DNA of 32,079 nucleotides from Patescibacteria group bacterium (GTDB taxonomy: Bacteria > Patescibacteriota > Minisyncoccia > Minisyncoccales > UBA5738): the NCBI GenBank assembly GCA_022710775.1, contig JAKLGH010000012.1, positions 1 to 32,079 of the forward strand. The letters are read 5' to 3'. Both the position numbers and the translations under genes were made by a program. Below, piece after piece: positions 691-26,443 of this stretch. The first letter of the stretch is position 1, and each line of letters begins with the position of its first letter. The notes under the pieces were generated by a model that saw only the letters and a program-made list of their open reading frames with translations, was not told the DNA's origin and made no database searches.

Positions 691-3000
691 CTAATTCTCT
701 CCGCCGAAAGTCCCGGTCGGGTCGGATATGCTGGAGTCGCTCTCCATTTCATCGCCGTCCTGATCCTCAACAGTACCTCCAATCTGCGCCGCATCGCCGA
801 AATCCTCATCAGTGATTTCTATATCGCTGCCGCTGGTCAAGGTAATAGTGAGAATCTTGCCGGTCGAGCTAAGCGCAAGCTTCGATGTAAATTTGCCGCT
901 GTCCTCAACCGAACCCATGTCAAAGGAAGCAATTCCCTTGATCGTCACTTTGCCCGAGGATGAAACGCTCACACCGCCGGTTTCCGAATAGGCAACTCCG
1001 GTTACCGTTTCTCCCTCATCGAGATCGTCGTTGACCGATTCCGGATCGATTGGTTCGTTGAAAGTGATGGAGATGTAATCTCCGACGTCGATATAGCCTT
1101 CGTCTCCGCCGTCGTATACGCGGATGGAAAAAATGTAGGGAGAATCGTCGTCAAAACTGCCGCCAAACGTGCCTCTAGGATAAAATATGCCCGAATCATA
1201 CTTCATCGCGTTACGGTTTAAATCCTCGACAACGCCGCCCAGTTGATCTGCGCGGCCAAAATTTTCATCACTGATTTCAATCGAAGCGCCGCTTTCTAAC
1301 GTTATTCTTAAAATCTCTCCGTTTGAGCTTAAAGAAATTCTGACATTAAAATCGCCCGAGTCTTCCACCGATCCCGTGTCAAAAGACGCAATATTTTCAA
1401 TTGTGACTTTTCCTGTTCCGGAAACGCTCACGCCGCCGGTTTCCCAATAATCGACAACTTCGATGTAGCCGCCTTCGACCAAATCATCATTAACCGATTC
1501 CGGATCGATTGGTTCGTTGAAAGTGATGGAGATGTAATCTCCGACGTCGATATAGCCTTCGTCTCCGCCGTCGTATACGCGGATGGAGGAAATGTAGGGA
1601 GAATCGTCGTCATCATAAATATCCTTTCCGCCGAAAGTTCCTGTCGGGTCATTGATACTGGAATCCCATTTCATTTCATTGCCATGCCTGTTTTCTATCG
1701 TGCCACCTACCTGAGCCGCATCATCGAAACTCTCGTTTCTGATTTTGATCTCGCTGCCGCTGGTAAGGGTAATTGTCAAAACCCTGCCATTCGAACTTAA
1801 AGCTTCCTTGGCAACAAAATCGCCCGAGTCTTCCACCGATCCCATGTCGAAGAAGGCAATATCCCTGACAGCTACCGTACCGGAGGATGAAACGCTCACG
1901 CCGCCGGTTTCCCAGTAATCGATGCCCCTAACGTAGTCTCCTTCGTCCAAATTCCTGTTGACCGATTCCGGATCGATTGGTTCGTTGAAAGTGATGGAGA
2001 TGTAATCTCCGACGTCGATATAGCCTTCGTCTCCGCCGTCGTATACGCGGATGGAGGAAATGTAGGGAGAATCGTCGTCATTCCCGTTTTCCCTCCCGAA
2101 AGTTCCTTTCAAATTATTAATCTTAACATTTGCAAGTACTGAGTTCCCGTATTCGTCTTCTATTATACCTCCAGCCTGGCGAGCGTTGGTAAAATTCTCG
2201 TTTCTGATTTCGATATCGCTGCCGCTGGTCAAGGTAATAGTGAGAATCTTGCCGGTCGAGCTAAGCGCAAGCTTCGATGTAAATTTGCCGCTGTCCTCAA
2301 CCGAACCCATGTCAAAGGAAGCAATTCCCTTGATCGTTACCTTTCCGGCCGAAGAAACGCTCACGCCGCCGGTTTCCCAGTAATCGATGCCCCTAACGTA
2401 GTCTCCTTCGTCCAAATTCCTGTTGACCGATTCCGGATCGATTGGTTCGTTGAAAGTGATGGAGATGTAATCTCCGACGTCGATATAGCCTTCGTCTCCG
2501 CCGTCGTATACGCGGATGGAGGAAATGAAGGGTGCGCCGCTTTCAGGCTGATAATAATTAAGTAATTGCTGAAGTGAAGCGATCTGTGCTTTTAGCGCTT
2601 CGATCCTGGCAGAAAGAATCGAATATGCGTCTTGAGAAGCCCTGGCGGACCTAAGATTGTTAAACAATGTCTTTGTCGAGTTGCCCGCGTATCCCGTGCC
2701 GGGAAGGCCATGAGCAACTTGAAATTTGGCTAGCGCGGTTCTTGTGGCATAACCAAAAAACAATGTTTCCGAACCGTATGATCCCGGCCCGGACAAAGCT
2801 ACCGGATAACCGTTCTCGTTCAAATACCGCTGCAAGCTTCTGACATCTTCTCCGACCGATCCAAAGCTTATATTCCTGAATAACAGCGGGGGAAGAGATT
2901 CCGCTTCCGCAATTCCACATGCCGGAACAAATGCAAAATACATCAGCAACAGACAAGCCGTTGCGGCGTTGATAAGTTTTGTTGTGATTTTGTTTGACAT
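691..3000 (-). CDS. Secreted PG-binding protein with four Big_5/SbsA-like Ig repeats (paralog A)
   Basis: A 769-aa secreted protein. Residues 1-34 look like a signal peptide (hydrophobic ACLLLMYFAFVPACG, then AEAES). Residues ~45-115 are a PG_binding_1 domain of the CPR type (VRSLQRYLNENGYPVALSGPG, FFGYATRTALAKFQ). Residues ~125-148 are a short coiled coil (ARIEALKAQIASLQQLL). Four repeats of about 150 residues follow (starting near 157, 311, 468 and 620). Each opens with a SSIRVYDGGDEGYIDVGD segment and carries ISITFNEPIDPESVN, like the bacterial Ig-like Big_5/SbsA family, and each ends near PTGTFGG. Asp-rich linkers (NDDDSP, DDDDSP) join them; acidic DGGDEG turns suggest metal binding (inference). 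It should anchor to peptidoglycan and display a stalk. Repeats are almost identical at DNA level, a sign of recombination. It is a paralog of the gene at 3278-5602. No Shine-Dalgarno is visible. Confidence 0.85.
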   Translation of the reverse strand: MSNKITTKLINAATACLLLMYFAFVPACGIAEAESLPPLLFRNISFGSVGEDVRSLQRYLNENGYPVALSGPGSYGSETLFFGYATRTALAKFQVAHGLPGTGYAGNSTKTLFNNLRSARASQDAYSILSARIEALKAQIASLQQLLNYYQPESGAPFISSIRVYDGGDEGYIDVGDYISITFNEPIDPESVNRNLDEGDYVRGIDYWETGGVSVSSAGKVTIKGIASFDMGSVEDSGKFTSKLALSSTGKILTITLTSGSDIEIRNENFTNARQAGGIIEDEYGNSVLANVKINNLKGTFGRENGNDDDSPYISSIRVYDGGDEGYIDVGDYISITFNEPIDPESVNRNLDEGDYVRGIDYWETGGVSVSSSGTVAVRDIAFFDMGSVEDSGDFVAKEALSSNGRVLTITLTSGSEIKIRNESFDDAAQVGGTIENRHGNEMKWDSSINDPTGTFGGKDIYDDDDSPYISSIRVYDGGDEGYIDVGDYISITFNEPIDPESVNDDLVEGGYIEVVDYWETGGVSVSGTGKVTIENIASFDTGSVEDSGDFNVRISLSSNGEILRITLESGASIEISDENFGRADQLGGVVEDLNRNAMKYDSGIFYPRGTFGGSFDDDSPYIFSIRVYDGGDEGYIDVGDYISITFNEPIDPESVNDDLDEGETVTGVAYSETGGVSVSSSGKVTIKGIASFDMGSVEDSGKFTSKLALSSTGKILTITLTSGSDIEITDEDFGDAAQIGGTVEDQDGDEMESDSSISDPTGTFGGEN
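1033..2528. repeat. Four near-identical ~100-bp repeats inside paralog A
   Basis: Copies start near 1033, 1493, 1960 and 2425. Each encodes the opening segment of an Ig repeat (IRVYDGGDEGYIDVGDYISI plus TFNEPIDPESVN). They are identical by eye over about 95 bp apart from a few positions at the first copy's edge. For the copies at 1960 and 2425 the identity extends roughly 70 bp further, starting near 1888 and 2356. Confidence 0.85.
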
Positions 3001-3277: not shown

Positions 3278-5602
3278 TTAATCATCTCCGCCGAAAGTCC
3301 CGGTCGGGTCGGATATGCTGGAGTCGCTCTCCATTTCATCGCCGTCCTGATCCTCAACAGTACCTCCAATCTGCGCCGCATCGCTGAAATCCTCATCATC
3401 GATCTCTAAATCGCTGCCGCTGGTCAAGGTAATAGTGAGAATCTTGCCGGTCGAGCTAAGCGCAAGCTTTGATGTAAATTTGCCGCTGTCCTCAACCGAA
3501 CCCATGTCAAAGGAAGCAATTCCCTTGATCGTCACTTTGCCCGAGGATGAAACGCTCACACCGCCGGTTTCCGAATAGGCAACTCCGGTTACCGTTTCTC
3601 CCTCATCGAGATCGTCGTTGACCGATTCCGGATCGATGGCTTCGCTGAAAGTAATAGCGATCGAATCTTTGGTGTCGATGTATCCTTCTTCACCGCCGTC
3701 GCTGATCTTGATCGTTGAAATATAAGGTCCGTCATTGCTCGAACTTCCTCCGCCGAAAGTCCCGGTCGGGTCGGATATGCTGGAGTCGCTCTCCATTTCA
3801 TCGCCGTCAAGGTCTTCCACGATTCCGCCAATCTGCTGGCCATCGTCAAAATCTTCGTCCTCGATCCCGATATCGTCCCCGTCAAACAGAGTAACCGTTA
3901 AAATTTTACCCGTAGAGTTTAGGCTTAACTTAACATCAAAATCCCCGGATTCATCAACCTCTCCCATGCTGAATGAGGCAATGCCCTCGACCGTTACTTT
4001 GCCGGCCGAAGAAACGCTCACTCCGCCGACCGACCAGTAATCCACATCTTCAACGGTTTCTCCCTCGTCGAGATCGTCGTTGACCGATTCCGGATCAATG
4101 GCTTCGCTGAAAGTGATGGTCAGATAATCGCCAACGTCGACTTGGTCTTCGTCCCCGCCGTCAGAAACTTTGATCGAAGAAATATATGGTCCTTCTTCAT
4201 CGTCATCGTCTCCGTTCTCATCGCCGCCGAAAGTCCCGGACGGGTCGTCAATATTGCTGTCGTATTCCATTTCGTTGCCATCCTTATCTTCGATCGTGCC
4301 GCCGCTTTGGGTGGCATTGTCAAAATCCTCATCGGTGATATCGATATCGCTGCCGCTCGTTAAAGTAACGGTCAAAATTTTACCCGTCGAATTAAGAGCG
4401 ATCTTGGAAGTGAATTTTCCCTCATTCTCAACCGATCCCATGTCAAAAGTAGCAATATCCTTAATCGTCACTGTTCCGCCGGATGAAACGCTCACTCCGC
4501 CGGTTTTTGTCGATGAAATGCTGCTCACGGTTTCTCCCTCGTCGAGATCGTCGTTGACCGATTCCGGATCAATGGCTTCGCTGAAAGTGATGGCGATCGA
4601 ATCGCCAATATCAATATATCCCTCGTCGCCGCCGTCCGAAACTTTAATCGCGGAAATTTCGGGCCCGTCTCCGTCATTATCGTCATCATCGTCATCGTCA
4701 TCGCCCTTTTCCCCGCCAAAAGTGCCAGTGGGCTCATCAATGCTGGAATCGCTTTTCATTTCATTTCCGTCTTTGTCTTCAATCGACCCTCCAATTTGGG
4801 CGGCGCTGCTAAAATCCTCGCTCTTAATCTTAACGTCATCGCCTCCGGTGATGGTTATGGTCAGTATCTTGCCGGTAGAGCTAAGCGCAAGTTTGGATTT
4901 GAAATTCTCCGAATCCTCAACCGAACCCATGTCAAAGGAAGCAATTCCCTTGATCGTAACTTTGCCGGCCGAAGATAAGCTCACGCCGCCGACCTCCGAA
5001 TAGGCAACTCCGGTTACGGTTTCTCCCTCGTCGAGATCGTCGTTGACCGATTCCGGATCGATAGCTTCGCTGAAAGTGATGGAGATGTAATCTCCTTCAT
5101 CAATATAATCTTCATCGCCTCCGTCAGCGACTTTAATCGATGAAATACTGGGAGCCGTTTCGTCGCCCATGCTGTCGAGCAGCGCCTGCAGCGCGGCGAT
5201 TTGCTTCTGTAAGTCTTGAATCTTAGCTAATAAAACGGCGTTCGATTCTCCGCCGCTCAATAATGCCCTGGTCTGGCTACCGCAATAACCGGTTGCGGGC
5301 AATCCGTTGGCGGCTTGGTAATTCATTAAAGCGGCTTTCGTGGCGAATCCAAAACGCGCGGTTTCGCTCCCGGGCGAGCCCGGACCGGCCAGCGCCACTT
5401 TGTAGCCGATGCTGTTCAAATACTTTTGCAGGCTTCTAACGTCTTCCCCGATCGAGCCAACCGTGAGATCCCTGCTTATTTGCAGCCCCGATTCCGCTTT
5501 TGCCGTATTTATCGCCAAAACGGCGGCAAACACCGCAACAAGCGCGAAGCATAAAACAAAAACCGATAGCTTTTTAAAACTTTCTTTTTTATTGTTTGTC
5601 AT
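3278..5602 (-). CDS. Secreted PG-binding protein with four Big_5/SbsA-like Ig repeats (paralog B)
   Basis: A 774-aa paralog of the 691-3000 protein with the same order of parts. Residues 1-37 are a signal peptide (basic MTNNKKESFKK, long hydrophobic core, then AKAES). Residues ~48-115 are a PG_binding_1 domain (VRSLQKYLNSIGYKVALAGPG, ARFGFATKAALMNYQ). Residues ~122-144 are a coiled coil. Ig-like repeats begin near 151, 313, 471 and 625. A poly-Asp run lies in the linker at ~302-309, and DDDDEE in the next linker. Paralog B has SEAIDPESVN where A has NEPIDPESVN. The last repeat is nearly the same DNA as the last repeat of paralog A, although the other repeats differ more. The protein is probably a cell-wall-attached surface stalk or adhesin; the Ig-like fold assignment is from motif similarity only. 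A leader of about 128 nt precedes it. Confidence 0.85.
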   Translation of the reverse strand: MTNNKKESFKKLSVFVLCFALVAVFAAVLAINTAKAESGLQISRDLTVGSIGEDVRSLQKYLNSIGYKVALAGPGSPGSETARFGFATKAALMNYQAANGLPATGYCGSQTRALLSGGESNAVLLAKIQDLQKQIAALQALLDSMGDETAPSISSIKVADGGDEDYIDEGDYISITFSEAIDPESVNDDLDEGETVTGVAYSEVGGVSLSSAGKVTIKGIASFDMGSVEDSENFKSKLALSSTGKILTITITGGDDVKIKSEDFSSAAQIGGSIEDKDGNEMKSDSSIDEPTGTFGGEKGDDDDDDDDNDGDGPEISAIKVSDGGDEGYIDIGDSIAITFSEAIDPESVNDDLDEGETVSSISSTKTGGVSVSSGGTVTIKDIATFDMGSVENEGKFTSKIALNSTGKILTVTLTSGSDIDITDEDFDNATQSGGTIEDKDGNEMEYDSNIDDPSGTFGGDENGDDDDEEGPYISSIKVSDGGDEDQVDVGDYLTITFSEAIDPESVNDDLDEGETVEDVDYWSVGGVSVSSAGKVTVEGIASFSMGEVDESGDFDVKLSLNSTGKILTVTLFDGDDIGIEDEDFDDGQQIGGIVEDLDGDEMESDSSISDPTGTFGGGSSSNDGPYISTIKISDGGEEGYIDTKDSIAITFSEAIDPESVNDDLDEGETVTGVAYSETGGVSVSSSGKVTIKGIASFDMGSVEDSGKFTSKLALSSTGKILTITLTSGSDLEIDDEDFSDAAQIGGTVEDQDGDEMESDSSISDPTGTFGGDD
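3288..3637. repeat. 350-bp near-identical segment shared with 701-1050
   Basis: Positions 701-1050 and 3288-3637 align without indels (offset 2587). By eye there are only about six differences, mostly in a short patch (near 809-820 and 3396-3407). Both encode the C-terminal Ig repeat of the two paralogs. Confidence 0.85.
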
Positions 5603-23067: not shown

Positions 23068-24084
23068 ATGAAAGGGAAAAAAAACGAACTTTATTACGCC
23101 GCGATAACCGCCGTTTTGGTTTTAGCCGCTTTGGTAACGCTTCTTTTGGATTACGGAAAATTGGGGAGCATCCTGGCTCGAACGGACTTTTACTTGATCC
23201 TATGCGCCGTTTTGTTCACCGCTGTTTCCTATATCGCGCATTCTTTCAGCTTTTGGTCGGTTTGCCGAATCTTTAAGGCGAGCATTCCTTCGCGTGAATT
23301 GCTGGAGATCGGCTTTGTTTCCAGCTCGCTTACCAACGTTCTGTCAGCCGCCGGCCTGCCAGGCCATACTTACCGGATCATTACCATGAAACGCAACCGG
23401 GTAGCGGCTGGCGACGTAACTGCTATCACGGTATTCCATACTTATTTCAACAATGCCGTTTTTTTTCTTTTATTGCCGCTGTCTTTATTGTTTATCTTCA
23501 ACGCTAGTTTTATCACCCGTGGCGAATTACTGGGTCTTGCGGCGGCGGCACTCATTTTTGTCATGTTCTTTTTAATGTCCACGGCAGCCTTATTCAAAAA
23601 AAATGTCCGTATGAAATTAACCGGCTTAATCGTCTCTTTGGCGGATATCTTTCATAAGAGAAAGCCAGTCGCGGATTTTATGGATAATTTCGGGACCGCG
23701 ATCGAGCGCGGCAAACAGCAAAGCCAGAAACGCCCTTTTTTACTGTTCTCGCTTATAGTTTTTTTGGTAGCCGACTGGGTATCAATGATTTTAACCCTCG
23801 GCTATTGCTTTGCCGCCTTCGGATCAGAAGTAGGCTTCGGAAAACTGCTGGTTGGATTTACTTCAGGCATCGCAGCCGGGGCGTTGTCGTTTATACCTGG
23901 CGGGCTGGGCATCTTTGAAAGCTCCATGGCCGGGATGTTCGCGATTTTGGGTACCGGCCTGGAAAACGCCGTGCTGGCGGTTTTGCTGTTCCGGTTCATC
24001 TATTATCTCCTGCCGTTCGGCTTTAGCCTTTTATTCTTCGGTAAAATCATTTTAGAATCAAGAAGGGAGGCCAAAACAACTTGA
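23068..24084 (+). CDS. Flippase-like / lysylphosphatidylglycerol synthase TM-region family protein (UPF0104)
   Basis: A 338-aa polytopic membrane protein with about eight TM segments. The pattern is that of the LPG_synthase_TM (UPF0104, AglD-like) family: ITAVLVLAALVTLLLDYG, VSYIAHSFSFWSVCRIF, the GFVSSSLTNVLSAAGLPGHT region, and the near-diagnostic SGIAAGALSFIPGGLGIFES toward the C-terminus, then VLAVLLFRFIYYLLPFGFS. No soluble aminoacyltransferase domain follows, so this is the membrane half alone, as in flippase-type members. In the family it handles lipids or lipid-linked saccharides; the substrate here is not visible. It starts 160 nt after the csaA-like gene on the opposite strand. No Shine-Dalgarno or clear promoter was identified. 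Confidence 0.8.
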   Translation: MKGKKNELYYAAITAVLVLAALVTLLLDYGKLGSILARTDFYLILCAVLFTAVSYIAHSFSFWSVCRIFKASIPSRELLEIGFVSSSLTNVLSAAGLPGHTYRIITMKRNRVAAGDVTAITVFHTYFNNAVFFLLLPLSLLFIFNASFITRGELLGLAAAALIFVMFFLMSTAALFKKNVRMKLTGLIVSLADIFHKRKPVADFMDNFGTAIERGKQQSQKRPFLLFSLIVFLVADWVSMILTLGYCFAAFGSEVGFGKLLVGFTSGIAAGALSFIPGGLGIFESSMAGMFAILGTGLENAVLAVLLFRFIYYLLPFGFSLLFFGKIILESRREAKTT

Positions 24085-24109
24085 CATGCAATACGCTAAA
24101 GGATATAGT
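24081..24109 (+). promoter_or_regulatory. Consensus promoter upstream of the long leader
   Basis: TTGACA (24081-24086), 17-nt spacer, TATAGT (24104-24109). The start near 24116 falls next to the ATG of the mini-ORF at 24118. Confidence 0.8.
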
Positions 24110-24117
24110 ATCAAATG

Positions 24118-24234
24118 ATGAAAATGGACGCAAATAATGCCATAGAAATTAGCGCGCTCACAAGCCTCGCGGCAATGGCTTGTTTTTGTTGTATCATCTG
24201 CCGTTCATCCGGGAGTTTTAAGATCAAATTCTAA
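24118..24234 (+). CDS. 38-aa Cys-rich leader peptide or micropeptide
   Basis: The frame reads MKMDANNAIEISALTSLAAM, then ACFCCIIC, RSSGSFKIKF and stop. Four Cys codons stand within seven codons (24181-24201), unusual for so short a peptide. The ATG lies directly at the predicted transcript start, so it would be leaderless. Another ATG at 24115 lies just before it, out of frame. Around it lie two terminator-like hairpins: ACAAGCC/GGCTTGT with T5 (24160-24187) and AACCTCCCG/CGGGAGGTT (24258-24280). It may be a regulatory leader peptide whose translation senses Cys supply, a small Cys protein, or part of a non-coding RNA. Confidence 0.5.
   Translation: MKMDANNAIEISALTSLAAMACFCCIICRSSGSFKIKF
24160..24187 (+). 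terminator. Terminator-like hairpin inside the leader
   Basis: ACAAGCC (24160-24166), 10-nt loop, GGCTTGT (24177-24183), T4. It overlaps the first Cys codons of the mini-ORF, so translation of that region would disrupt it. Confidence 0.5.
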
Positions 24235-24287
24235 GCTTATTGGCCTGATCAAATCTCAACCTCCCGGAAAACGGGAGGTTGTTTGTT
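24209..24287 (+). promoter_or_regulatory. Attenuator-like switch (antiterminator/terminator)
   Basis: The terminator stem is AACCTCCCG (24258-24266) with CGGGAGGTT (24272-24280), then GTTTGTT. An upstream CCGGGAG (24209-24215) can pair fully with CTCCCGG (24261-24267), which would break the terminator. The two pairings exclude each other, as in attenuators. It lies 150 nt before a Cys-rich gene. Confidence 0.5.
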
Positions 24288-24344
24288 AATCGCTTCCGGT
24301 TTTAGCTTTATTTTATAGCGGTAAGTGCCAATCATTGATTTTTT

Positions 24345-24394
24345 CCTGGAGTCCCGGCAATTAATTTTGCCCGGACTCCAGGGCGGAATCCGCC
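24345..24394 (+). promoter_or_regulatory. Large hairpins before the Shine-Dalgarno of the 24434 gene
   Basis: CCTGGAGTCC (24345-24354) pairs with GGACTCCAGG (24373-24382). One C-C mismatch and an inner GGCAA/TTGCC continue it toward the loop, giving 15 base pairs in total. A second hairpin GGCGG/CCGCC follows (24382-24394), sharing one base with the first. They lie about 25 nt upstream of the ribosome-binding site. Confidence 0.65.
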
Positions 24395-24433
24395 TTGAAT
24401 AGTTATGCGCTCTTTAACAAGGAGGAAAAGAAA

Positions 24434-25411
24434 ATGGAATATTATATCACCGGCAAAGATGAATTATCTGCCGAGATCAAGTCCAGATTGCCCTTAAAAA
24501 AAAGGCTGGCTGGCCTGGCCGATAAGTTCGCGAAAAAAGAATTCGGAATTTCCGGTTTTTCGGAAATGTCGGAACAAAATCTTGATCTTCCGACAAGCCG
24601 ACCCTGCGGCGTTCTCTGCCGCCAGGTAGCTACCGCCAGGATAGAAGAGGTTTGCAATTATGTATCGTGCGCTTGCCTCAACCTTTTACCGATGAATTTT
24701 ACGTTCGGTCTCGATACATTCAGCACCCGAAACGCCGATAAAGTAAATCTGGTCAAAGTAAGGTACGCCGTCGGCCATTCAAAGAACGGCCGGCCAATGG
24801 TCCGCGTTGAAAAACTCGCCGATCCTAAAGCTTTGGAAGGCATGATCTTAAGGGAAATTATGGTTGACGTCGGCATCAGCTTGCCGGAATACCATCGCCG
24901 CCTGCGGTCGAAAACATTCGGGCAGTATTGTCCGCCAACGCGGGAGATAGGCTCGCTATTCTCGTTGTATTTGAGGAAAGCGAAAAAACATCCGCCTTGG
25001 GTATTCGAGATCAACAAATTCCATACGGTCAAGAAAACCATCAATGAGGCCAATCTCTACGCTTCGCGGCCGCCTGCCTCGTGGTATTACCCGCTATACC
25101 TGGCGAATTTCTTATCCGGCAATCTCGTCCTGTTTGAAACCTACGAAAACAAAAGTGGAGACGTCCATAAAATCAAGGAAGATTTTCGCACCGCTATGGA
25201 TATCATCATGGACGCCACCGGCTTCTATCCTATGGTTGTACAAACGCCGCCGCTCGACCTGGACATGATGCTGATAAATACCGCGCTGTTCGAATCCGAA
25301 TGGAGAAGCCAGATATCCGTTCCTGAAAACTTTTCCTGCGATACCGTTGCGCTTTTTTCGCTGATTGCCAAGCAAGCAATCGCGATAGGCAGCGATGGCG
25401 TTTCCCCATAG
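24434..25411 (+). CDS. 325-aa Cys-containing protein of unknown function
   Basis: I do not recognise this protein. It is soluble-looking and has a Cys-rich part near residues 58-81 (RPCGVLCRQVATARIEEVC, then SCAC), with more isolated Cys later (FGQYCPPTRE). Other visible parts: a charged N-terminus (KDELSAEIKSRLPLKKRL), a basic middle region (YHRRLRSKTFG, YLRKAKKHPP), an aromatic stretch ASWYYPLYLANFLSG, and a C-terminal section FYPMVVQTPPLDLDMML. The Cys pattern could hold a metal or disulfides. The start is firm: AAGGAGG (24419-24425) lies 8 nt before the ATG, and the frame extends upstream without a better start. It follows a long, structured leader with an attenuator-like element and a Cys-rich mini-ORF, and ends in its own terminator. 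Confidence 0.65.
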   Translation: MEYYITGKDELSAEIKSRLPLKKRLAGLADKFAKKEFGISGFSEMSEQNLDLPTSRPCGVLCRQVATARIEEVCNYVSCACLNLLPMNFTFGLDTFSTRNADKVNLVKVRYAVGHSKNGRPMVRVEKLADPKALEGMILREIMVDVGISLPEYHRRLRSKTFGQYCPPTREIGSLFSLYLRKAKKHPPWVFEINKFHTVKKTINEANLYASRPPASWYYPLYLANFLSGNLVLFETYENKSGDVHKIKEDFRTAMDIIMDATGFYPMVVQTPPLDLDMMLINTALFESEWRSQISVPENFSCDTVALFSLIAKQAIAIGSDGVSP

Positions 25412-25433
25412 GAAGGTAAAACCTTCCTTTTTT
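25410..25433 (+). terminator. Terminator of the 24434 gene
   Basis: AGGAAGG (25410-25416), TAAAA, CCTTCCT (25422-25428) running into T6. It overlaps the last base pair of the stop codon region. Confidence 0.85.
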
Positions 25434-25480: not shown

Positions 25481-26443
25481 ATGAACCAAGAATTCGATCC
25501 AATCGGTTTTATCGAAGGCTTATTGCAATTTTCACCGCGCTTGGGTTTAAGCGAAAGAAAAGCCGCCGAATTCATTATTTCGGTCTTAAAAGGAAATAAT
25601 GTCGCCTTTACGGTCCAAGAATTTGAAACATCCGTTCCGGTTGCCAGAAAGGCAAGGCTGGAAGCGGACGGGAAACGTATTGACTGCCTTAATTCCAGTT
25701 TTACCGGCGGCGTAATTGACGGTAAAAACAGCATAGTTAGTTCGCTAACGCCCTCGCGGCTTTTTTTGGAATACCCAAACATCAATTTCAACCCGGAGTG
25801 CCCAGCGATCTCTTTGGGTAATTTTTATTTTGCCCCGTCCGTAGCTTTGAGCAAAACCGACCTTCCTAAAATTTTGCGGGCCAAAAAGGTTAAAGCCGAA
25901 ACCGTGGTTGAACCGTACAACTACAGCGCTTGGAACATCTTGGTCGGCAACGCGGAAAATCCCAACAGCATTATTTTCGCCCACTACGACTCCCTGGCAA
26001 CGGGCGCCTGCGATAACGCTTCGGGAGCAAGCATCTTGATGCACATGGTCTTAAAACAGCCGGAATTTTTAAAAAAGAACCTGTTTGTTTTCGCGGCCAA
26101 TGAAGAACTCTCTTACGACAAGCCCACTTATTGGGGCCACGGATTCCGGGCTTTCGAGGAAGCAAATTTAAGCCTCATGGCCTCGTCCAAACGGCTGATT
26201 GCGGTTGATTGCGCGGGAAACGGAAAAAACAATTTTGAATCCAGCGAACGGATGGTTTATTTGGCTTTTCCGATTAAAAGATCCGGCGAATGGATGGAAA
26301 AAATCCTGGTACTTTGCGGCGATCTTAAAAAAGAAGACAAGGTTTACCATTCCAAGCTCGACAGCCTCAAACAGCTGAATAAAAAAAGCTTGATGGAAGC
26401 GGCTAATTTATTGGCCAAAGAGCTTTTCAAATTTTCTTTCTAG
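25481..26443 (+). CDS. M28-family zinc aminopeptidase-like protein
   Basis: A 320-aa M28 (Zn aminopeptidase) domain protein without a signal peptide. The two-zinc site can be traced: FAHYDS (H168), TGACDNASGAS (D178, bridging), AANEELSY (E208 general base, E209 ligand), IAVDCAGN (D243) and KVYHSKLDSL (H290). All expected positions are filled, so it should be active. The absence of a signal points to a cytosolic role in peptide breakdown, though M28 also includes glutaminyl cyclase-like members. The first ~140 residues hold a helix and a variable region. A weak extended -10 (TGCTAACAT, ending 25456) lies 24 nt before the ATG. No Shine-Dalgarno. Confidence 0.85.
   Translation: MNQEFDPIGFIEGLLQFSPRLGLSERKAAEFIISVLKGNNVAFTVQEFETSVPVARKARLEADGKRIDCLNSSFTGGVIDGKNSIVSSLTPSRLFLEYPNINFNPECPAISLGNFYFAPSVALSKTDLPKILRAKKVKAETVVEPYNYSAWNILVGNAENPNSIIFAHYDSLATGACDNASGASILMHMVLKQPEFLKKNLFVFAANEELSYDKPTYWGHGFRAFEEANLSLMASSKRLIAVDCAGNGKNNFESSERMVYLAFPIKRSGEWMEKILVLCGDLKKEDKVYHSKLDSLKQLNKKSLMEAANLLAKELFKFSF

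Follow-up and report, generated by a model that had tools for sequence, protein, structure and literature searches.

A candidate leader-peptide attenuator with clustered cysteine codons upstream of an uncharacterised gene in Patescibacteria

The enterobacterial trp, his, ilv and leu leaders are Yanofsky-type transcription attenuators. Cysteine codons in comparable leader ORFs have been described elsewhere. In Actinobacteria, Cys leader peptides precede cysteine genes, and no conserved terminator hairpins were found with them in mycobacteria (PMC1262725); PMC9031893, citing Canestrari 2020, likewise describes mycobacterial poly-Cys leaderless short ORFs upstream of cysteine genes. Ribosome-mediated attenuation was proposed for the cysS gene of Rhodobacterales, which is preceded by the uORFC-8-2 motif, a uORF with tandem Cys codons followed by a terminator (PMC8632094).

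Full-text literature searches turned up no account of attenuation by leader peptides in Patescibacteria. Members of this phylum reach high abundance in many groundwaters, for the most part resist cultivation and are thought to have little regulation. The window analysed here (32,079 nt) comprises one entire contig from a draft genome of 1.16 Mb, hereafter G000. Loss of ribosomal protein uL30 is a known trait of Patescibacteria, and uL30 was found neither in G000 nor in 28 relatives, while it is present in 13 of 14 control genomes; this absence, taken with the small genomes of all the relatives, fits the assignment to the phylum. The window contains a region that we read, from its sequence and with a probability of about 0.8, as a leader-peptide (ribosome-mediated) transcription attenuator of the gene that follows it, called X. 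As far as the searched literature shows, such a device is new for the phylum, its kind being known in principle. The features are as follows.

24081..24109, + strand: predicted sigma-70-type promoter, TTGACA-17-TATAGT, 11/12 consensus matches; the counterpart in the congener G001 is TTGACG-17-TATATT
24124..24234, + strand: predicted mini-ORF (leader peptide) MDANNAIEISALTSLAAMACFCCIICRSSGSFKIKF; its length and MAC-x-CC ... GSF are common to G001
24181..24201, + strand: putative control region with Cys codons at 24181, 24187, 24190 and 24199, the first three kept in G001
24207..24227, + strand: predicted antiterminator strand, which lies within the mini-ORF and has CCGGGAG (24209-24215) as its core; dG -18.5, p 0.010 against shuffles
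24257..24288, + strand: predicted intrinsic terminator, hairpin 24257-24281 plus T-rich tail; its 5' arm doubles as the antiterminator partner
24345-24382 and 24382-24394, + strand: two further predicted hairpins between terminator and X, before the boxA-like element, both stable
24409..24419, + strand: boxA-like element GCTCTTTAACA, directly before the Shine-Dalgarno; GTTCTTTAACA stands at equal distance in G001
24420..24425, + strand: Shine-Dalgarno AGGAGG of X
24434..25411, + strand: X, 325 aa, a new protein family that matches no Pfam or NCBIfam model and no PDB fold
25410..25428, + strand: hairpin with T run that resembles a terminator, separating X from the peptidase gene
25481..26443, + strand: M28-like peptidase gene (PF04389, 6e-8, above cut-off), a conserved neighbour of X

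The -35 element of the promoter shares bases with the stop codon of an upstream LPG-synthase-TM-like gene. The mini-ORF has in-frame ATGs at 24115, 24118 and 24124 and a stop codon at 24232-24234; its start is likely 24124, the ATG common to G001, which gives 36 codons and a peptide with MACFCCIIC, the Cys cluster occupying codons 20-26. Because the predicted -10 ends at 24109, 14 nt before this ATG, the mini-ORF would sit at the very start of the transcript with almost no 5' leader. The terminator, CAACCTCCCG-GAAAA-CGGGAGGTTG, has a dG of -18.8 and a moderate T run, and the antiterminator duplex taken alone beats about 99% of shuffles. The sequence-only reading had anticipated most of these parts: its consensus promoter, the competing arms CCGGGAG (24209-24215) and CTCCCGG (24261-24267), the hairpin at 24345-24382 with a second, small one behind it and the strong Shine-Dalgarno ahead of the gene start at 24434 were all found, the larger hairpin with one mismatch and, by eye, part of its pairs kept in G001. 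Its 38-codon frame exists as well, counted from 24118, although the start shared with G001 makes the frame 36 codons in both genomes.

Like the enterobacterial attenuators, the locus places control codons in a short ORF, an overlapping antiterminator behind them and an intrinsic terminator before the structural gene. It differs from them in that the mini-ORF lies at, or within a few nucleotides of, the likely transcript start, that the codons specify cysteine rather than tryptophan, histidine or branched-chain amino acids, that the target gene is uncharacterised, and that a boxA-like element follows the terminator. With the actinobacterial and mycobacterial ORFs upstream of cysteine genes it shares a short frame with Cys codons; unlike the mycobacterial leaders of PMC1262725, it has both an intrinsic terminator and an antiterminator. 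From uORFC-8-2 it differs in phylum, gene and sequence, and it lacks an Rfam match. No known Rfam leader or riboswitch scored above its gathering threshold, and relaxed thresholds returned chance-level matches only. Among these was a weak match to Phe_leader that covers the terminator, and it was set aside; a free-standing RNA such as 6S was likewise discarded, there being no family match.

Further support for the attenuator was provided by related genomes. The congener is represented by one genome, G001 (GenBank CAINCQ010000041.1), which keeps in register the upstream gene, the promoter, a 36-codon mini-ORF, the CGGGAG strand, the terminator and a block around the Shine-Dalgarno. MAC-x-CC and GSF are found in both peptides, the fourth Cys is absent from that of G001, and the differences between the two mini-ORFs by codon position (14, 16 and 18) carry no clear coding signature. 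A protein search gave weak matches and no credible homologue of the mini-ORF outside the congener. The same order of parts precedes X in 14 genomes from several families, all presumably patescibacterial. These 14 leaders lie upstream of long or M28-linked X genes; the distant mini-ORFs and terminators among them were partly picked by hand, and the related pairs G000/G001 and G383/G982 are not independent. All 14 have a terminator, and most have a TTGACA promoter within a few nucleotides of an ORF of 17-37 codons. In 13, a strand that can pair with the 5' arm of the terminator, together with the bases ahead of that arm, begins in the second half or the last codons of the ORF; in G502 the strongest pairing is formed in another place, and a second candidate is seen at the ORF end. 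Instead of the loss of mini-ORF or alternative stems that would have spoken against the sequence-only reading, the opposite was found, both being conserved in G001 and the arrangement recurring in the 14 genomes.

Over the 14 leaders, the alternative pairing beats dinucleotide shuffles with a combined p of 8e-16. The antiterminator strands vary by family (CGGGAG, GGCCGGTTTTGG, GAGGAAGG, GTGCTAGG), and the mini-ORF ends favour their own terminators over those of other leaders, the summed energy being -314 against -194 +/- 15 kcal/mol, a value reached in 0 of 20000 permutations. Such a fit between own partners whose strands diverge between families points to coevolution. Sequence comparison establishes that all the parts exist, in what order they stand, that they are conserved and that either pairing shuts out the other; the attenuator proposed at the outset is supported.

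The proposed mechanism would run as follows. Transcription would start at or just before the ATG of the mini-ORF, leaving hardly any 5' leader ahead of translation. Given ample Cys-tRNA, the ribosome would reach the stop codon and disturb the antiterminator strand (24207-24227); the terminator hairpin (24257-24281) would then form and transcription would stop. Given too little Cys-tRNA, the ribosome would stall at the earliest Cys codons; the antiterminator strand would then pair with the 5' arm of the terminator and polymerase would continue into X.

This switch was modelled by equilibrium folding of the RNA downstream of the ribosome, whose edge was set 14 nt past the start of the A site; kinetics were ignored. 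In the model, the probability of the terminator in the window is 0.10 when the first Cys codon (24181) occupies the A site, the minimum over codons 13-36, against 0.99 with the ribosome at the stop codon and 0.91 without a ribosome; as in trp, it is also high when no ribosome is present. The low values are limited to codons 19-20, the second and third Cys codons giving 0.95-0.99. A clear modelled switch was obtained for G000, G383, G982, G056, G083, G807, G953 and nearly all of the cysteine synthase leaders discussed below; it is weak in the other leaders and, at equilibrium, absent from G001 and G719. In G001 this follows from a very long terminator (16 bp), which wins in every ribosome state, so that switching there could occur through kinetics only.

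The likely signal in the window is cysteine. G000 was scanned for a promoter, mini-ORF, terminator, antiterminator and gene in succession, which yielded few candidates. Two of the best were the leader of X and that of a cysteine synthase gene, cysK (L077 13193-14307, contig C6; identified by TIGR01136), which carries MESLNIKTDNSPSLRLAVPVICCISLF with its tandem Cys codons, an antiterminator and a terminator; these two are the Cys-cluster leaders found in G000. Across the order, a Cys-cluster mini-ORF occurs at 21 of 28 cysK loci, compared with 11% among the genes of G000 (p 4e-15), with MIKERIYCCCYCCCKLRD and MFYQINLDCCACCCTLCKGVCLNC as examples from relatives. In 21 curated cysK leaders Cys makes up 19% of the residues, the antiterminators beat shuffles with a combined p of 2.5e-20, the spacing from -10 to ATG is 6-18 nt in most, and the modelled probability of the terminator is mostly 0.00 with a stalled ribosome against about 0.95 with one at the stop codon. 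Because the same device with Cys-run peptides stands before cysK in G000 and across the order, cysteine gains weight as the signal at X. The cysK loci L077 and L154-L182, with their Cys-run leader peptides, antiterminators and terminators, form a clade-wide set of candidate cysteine attenuators. In G008 and G038, a tRNA-Cys gene just ahead of cysK separates it from its Cys leader (L176 2400-2472 and L177 1411-1482); in G182, such a gene immediately precedes an X gene of the short form (L021 2027-2099).

The mini-ORFs before X agree with a cysteine signal in part. Cys is enriched 3.9-fold in them (p 4e-7) and Phe 2-fold, Asp, Glu and Pro are underrepresented, and none lacks both Cys and Trp (naive p 2.6e-5, for a feature chosen after looking). 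C-x-C-C occurs in three, those of G000, G001 and the distant G081; the remainder have mostly mixed hydrophobic or aromatic runs (Ile/Leu/Phe/Trp/Cys) with one or two Cys or Trp, such as AAYFCWMLFIIVLFYAF in G218 and NWYFLFIIF in G502. The same attenuator might therefore be a broad sensor of amino-acid shortage or slowed translation, the Cys cluster being one of several control runs. These mixed runs and the enrichment of Phe speak for this alternative, as do further G000 leaders with Ile/Leu or aromatic runs that do not precede Cys genes, but the finding of Cys-cluster leaders in G000 before X and cysK and the C-x-C-C shared as far as G081 argue against it, and we put it at clearly less than even odds. 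The attenuator is most likely tuned to cysteine in the genus of the window, where we infer that the mini-ORF is translated and that cysteine is sensed. The cysteine signal first proposed for the locus is strengthened by the cysK leaders and is weaker for X in other families, whose leaders are mixed; the Cys residues of X are unconserved outside the genus. Cysteine is likely here and not everywhere.

The three other explanations fare worse. The mini-ORF might be an independent gene for a small protein, ended by its own terminator, with X transcribed separately behind it; promoter, short frame and terminator do make up a complete small gene, whose MAC-x-CC and GSF are conserved. This is unlikely, as the only promoter-like site between terminator and X overlaps the gene start and is not convincing, and as the overlap of the ORF end with an antiterminator recurs elsewhere with changing sequence. 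Sensing of a metal (copper or zinc) by the Cys-rich nascent peptide is very unlikely. It was considered because C-F-C-C-I-I-C could bind a soft metal and because the proteobacterial copper-sensing upstream frames CutF/CruR also place a Cys-containing frame ahead of the next gene, CutF being an exported protein that acts through a CxxxC motif and has a Pro-rich arrest-like motif (PMC9973294). The mini-ORF of the window, as read from its sequence, has neither an export signal nor a Pro-rich stretch of this kind, most homologous leaders lack Cys clusters, no metal gene lies nearby and cysteine synthase has the same device. Least credible is that the terminator just ends the LPG-synthase-like transcript and the rest is coincidence: the promoter overlaps that gene's stop codon and the terminator follows about 170 nt later, but the device is kept in families with unrelated upstream genes and has its cysK parallels in G000 and the order.

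Gene X itself gives few clues. A structure model with high confidence (pLDDT 91.6) had no PDB match below E 1e-3, and degenerate DNA patterns found close relatives in the congener alone among GTDB contigs and none among viral contigs. The five clustered Cys noted in its product at the start are a trait of the genus and not of the family, and were dropped as a functional clue since they are not conserved. Long forms of X usually adjoin the M28-like peptidase gene, and short forms elsewhere are often near histidine-kinase genes; a short paralogue in G000 (C32, L054) lies beside a histidine-kinase-like gene and a gene for a Cys-rich small membrane-anchored protein. Because of the terminator-like hairpin between them, X and the peptidase gene may not form one transcript. 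That the attenuator serves amino-acid scavenging through X and the peptidase is speculative.

The boxA consensus, GYTCTTTRAMA, is that of an rRNA antitermination element. GCTCTTTAACA matches it, and in 10 of the 14 X leaders a boxA-like element deviating from it at no more than one position comes after the terminator, against 2.9% of G000 genes; summed over the leaders, the mismatches number 19 against 49 +/- 3 in shuffles. The idea arose from the rarity of TTCTTTAACAAGGAGG, which was rejected as a genome-wide leader motif. The G000 stretches contain only 15 exact boxA matches, a total in which an overlap makes one match appear twice; four follow attenuator-like leaders (the window, L112 twice and L079). 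Putative elements between an attenuator terminator and a gene were seen in the window (24409-24419), L071, L068, L112 and L079. We know of no earlier case in which a leader-peptide attenuator and boxA occur together. In E. coli, Nus factors repress suhB through a boxA close to its Shine-Dalgarno (PMC5725501); the putative element of the window is similarly close to the Shine-Dalgarno in the mRNA leader, but no leader-peptide attenuator is described for suhB in that study.

Patescibacteria probably sense amino-acid shortage by stalled ribosomes. A larger picture can be drawn tentatively, in which they possess a network of near-leaderless attenuators, those of cysK and X having Cys runs and those of other genes, and of X in other families, mixed runs. 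In this picture many X leaders would be two-step switches, where boxA places X under Nus-factor control once read-through has occurred, and X would be part of a new peptide-scavenging system. If the attenuator reading is right, it would explain how a cell that has few regulators notices a lack of amino acids and would place the uncharacterised X in a nutrient response. Control codons that vary by family before one gene make the evolution of specificity testable.

Further attenuator-like leaders were noted in G000 in L094 (around 450-620), in L112 (- strand, around forward 4021 and 805) and in L079 (- strand, around forward 1559); their mini-ORFs are MNSQSQQFNNSILLLVLGVLIKEGFLFGER, MEYAINAINQIIIDLLFEGRLFEQ (upstream of a gene of 128 aa and of one resembling methionyl-tRNA synthetase), MNLRARKNFWFSYYFIRTRCLGNFRL and MFSNNINNPVIVLMLGHTAKREWPGLEYIQKT, and the genes behind them code mostly for uncharacterised proteins. 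Elsewhere in the window, 691-3000 and 3278-5602 on the - strand are neighbouring large paralogues with N-terminal signal-like segments and repeated DGGDEGYIDVGDYISITFNEPIDPESVN units.
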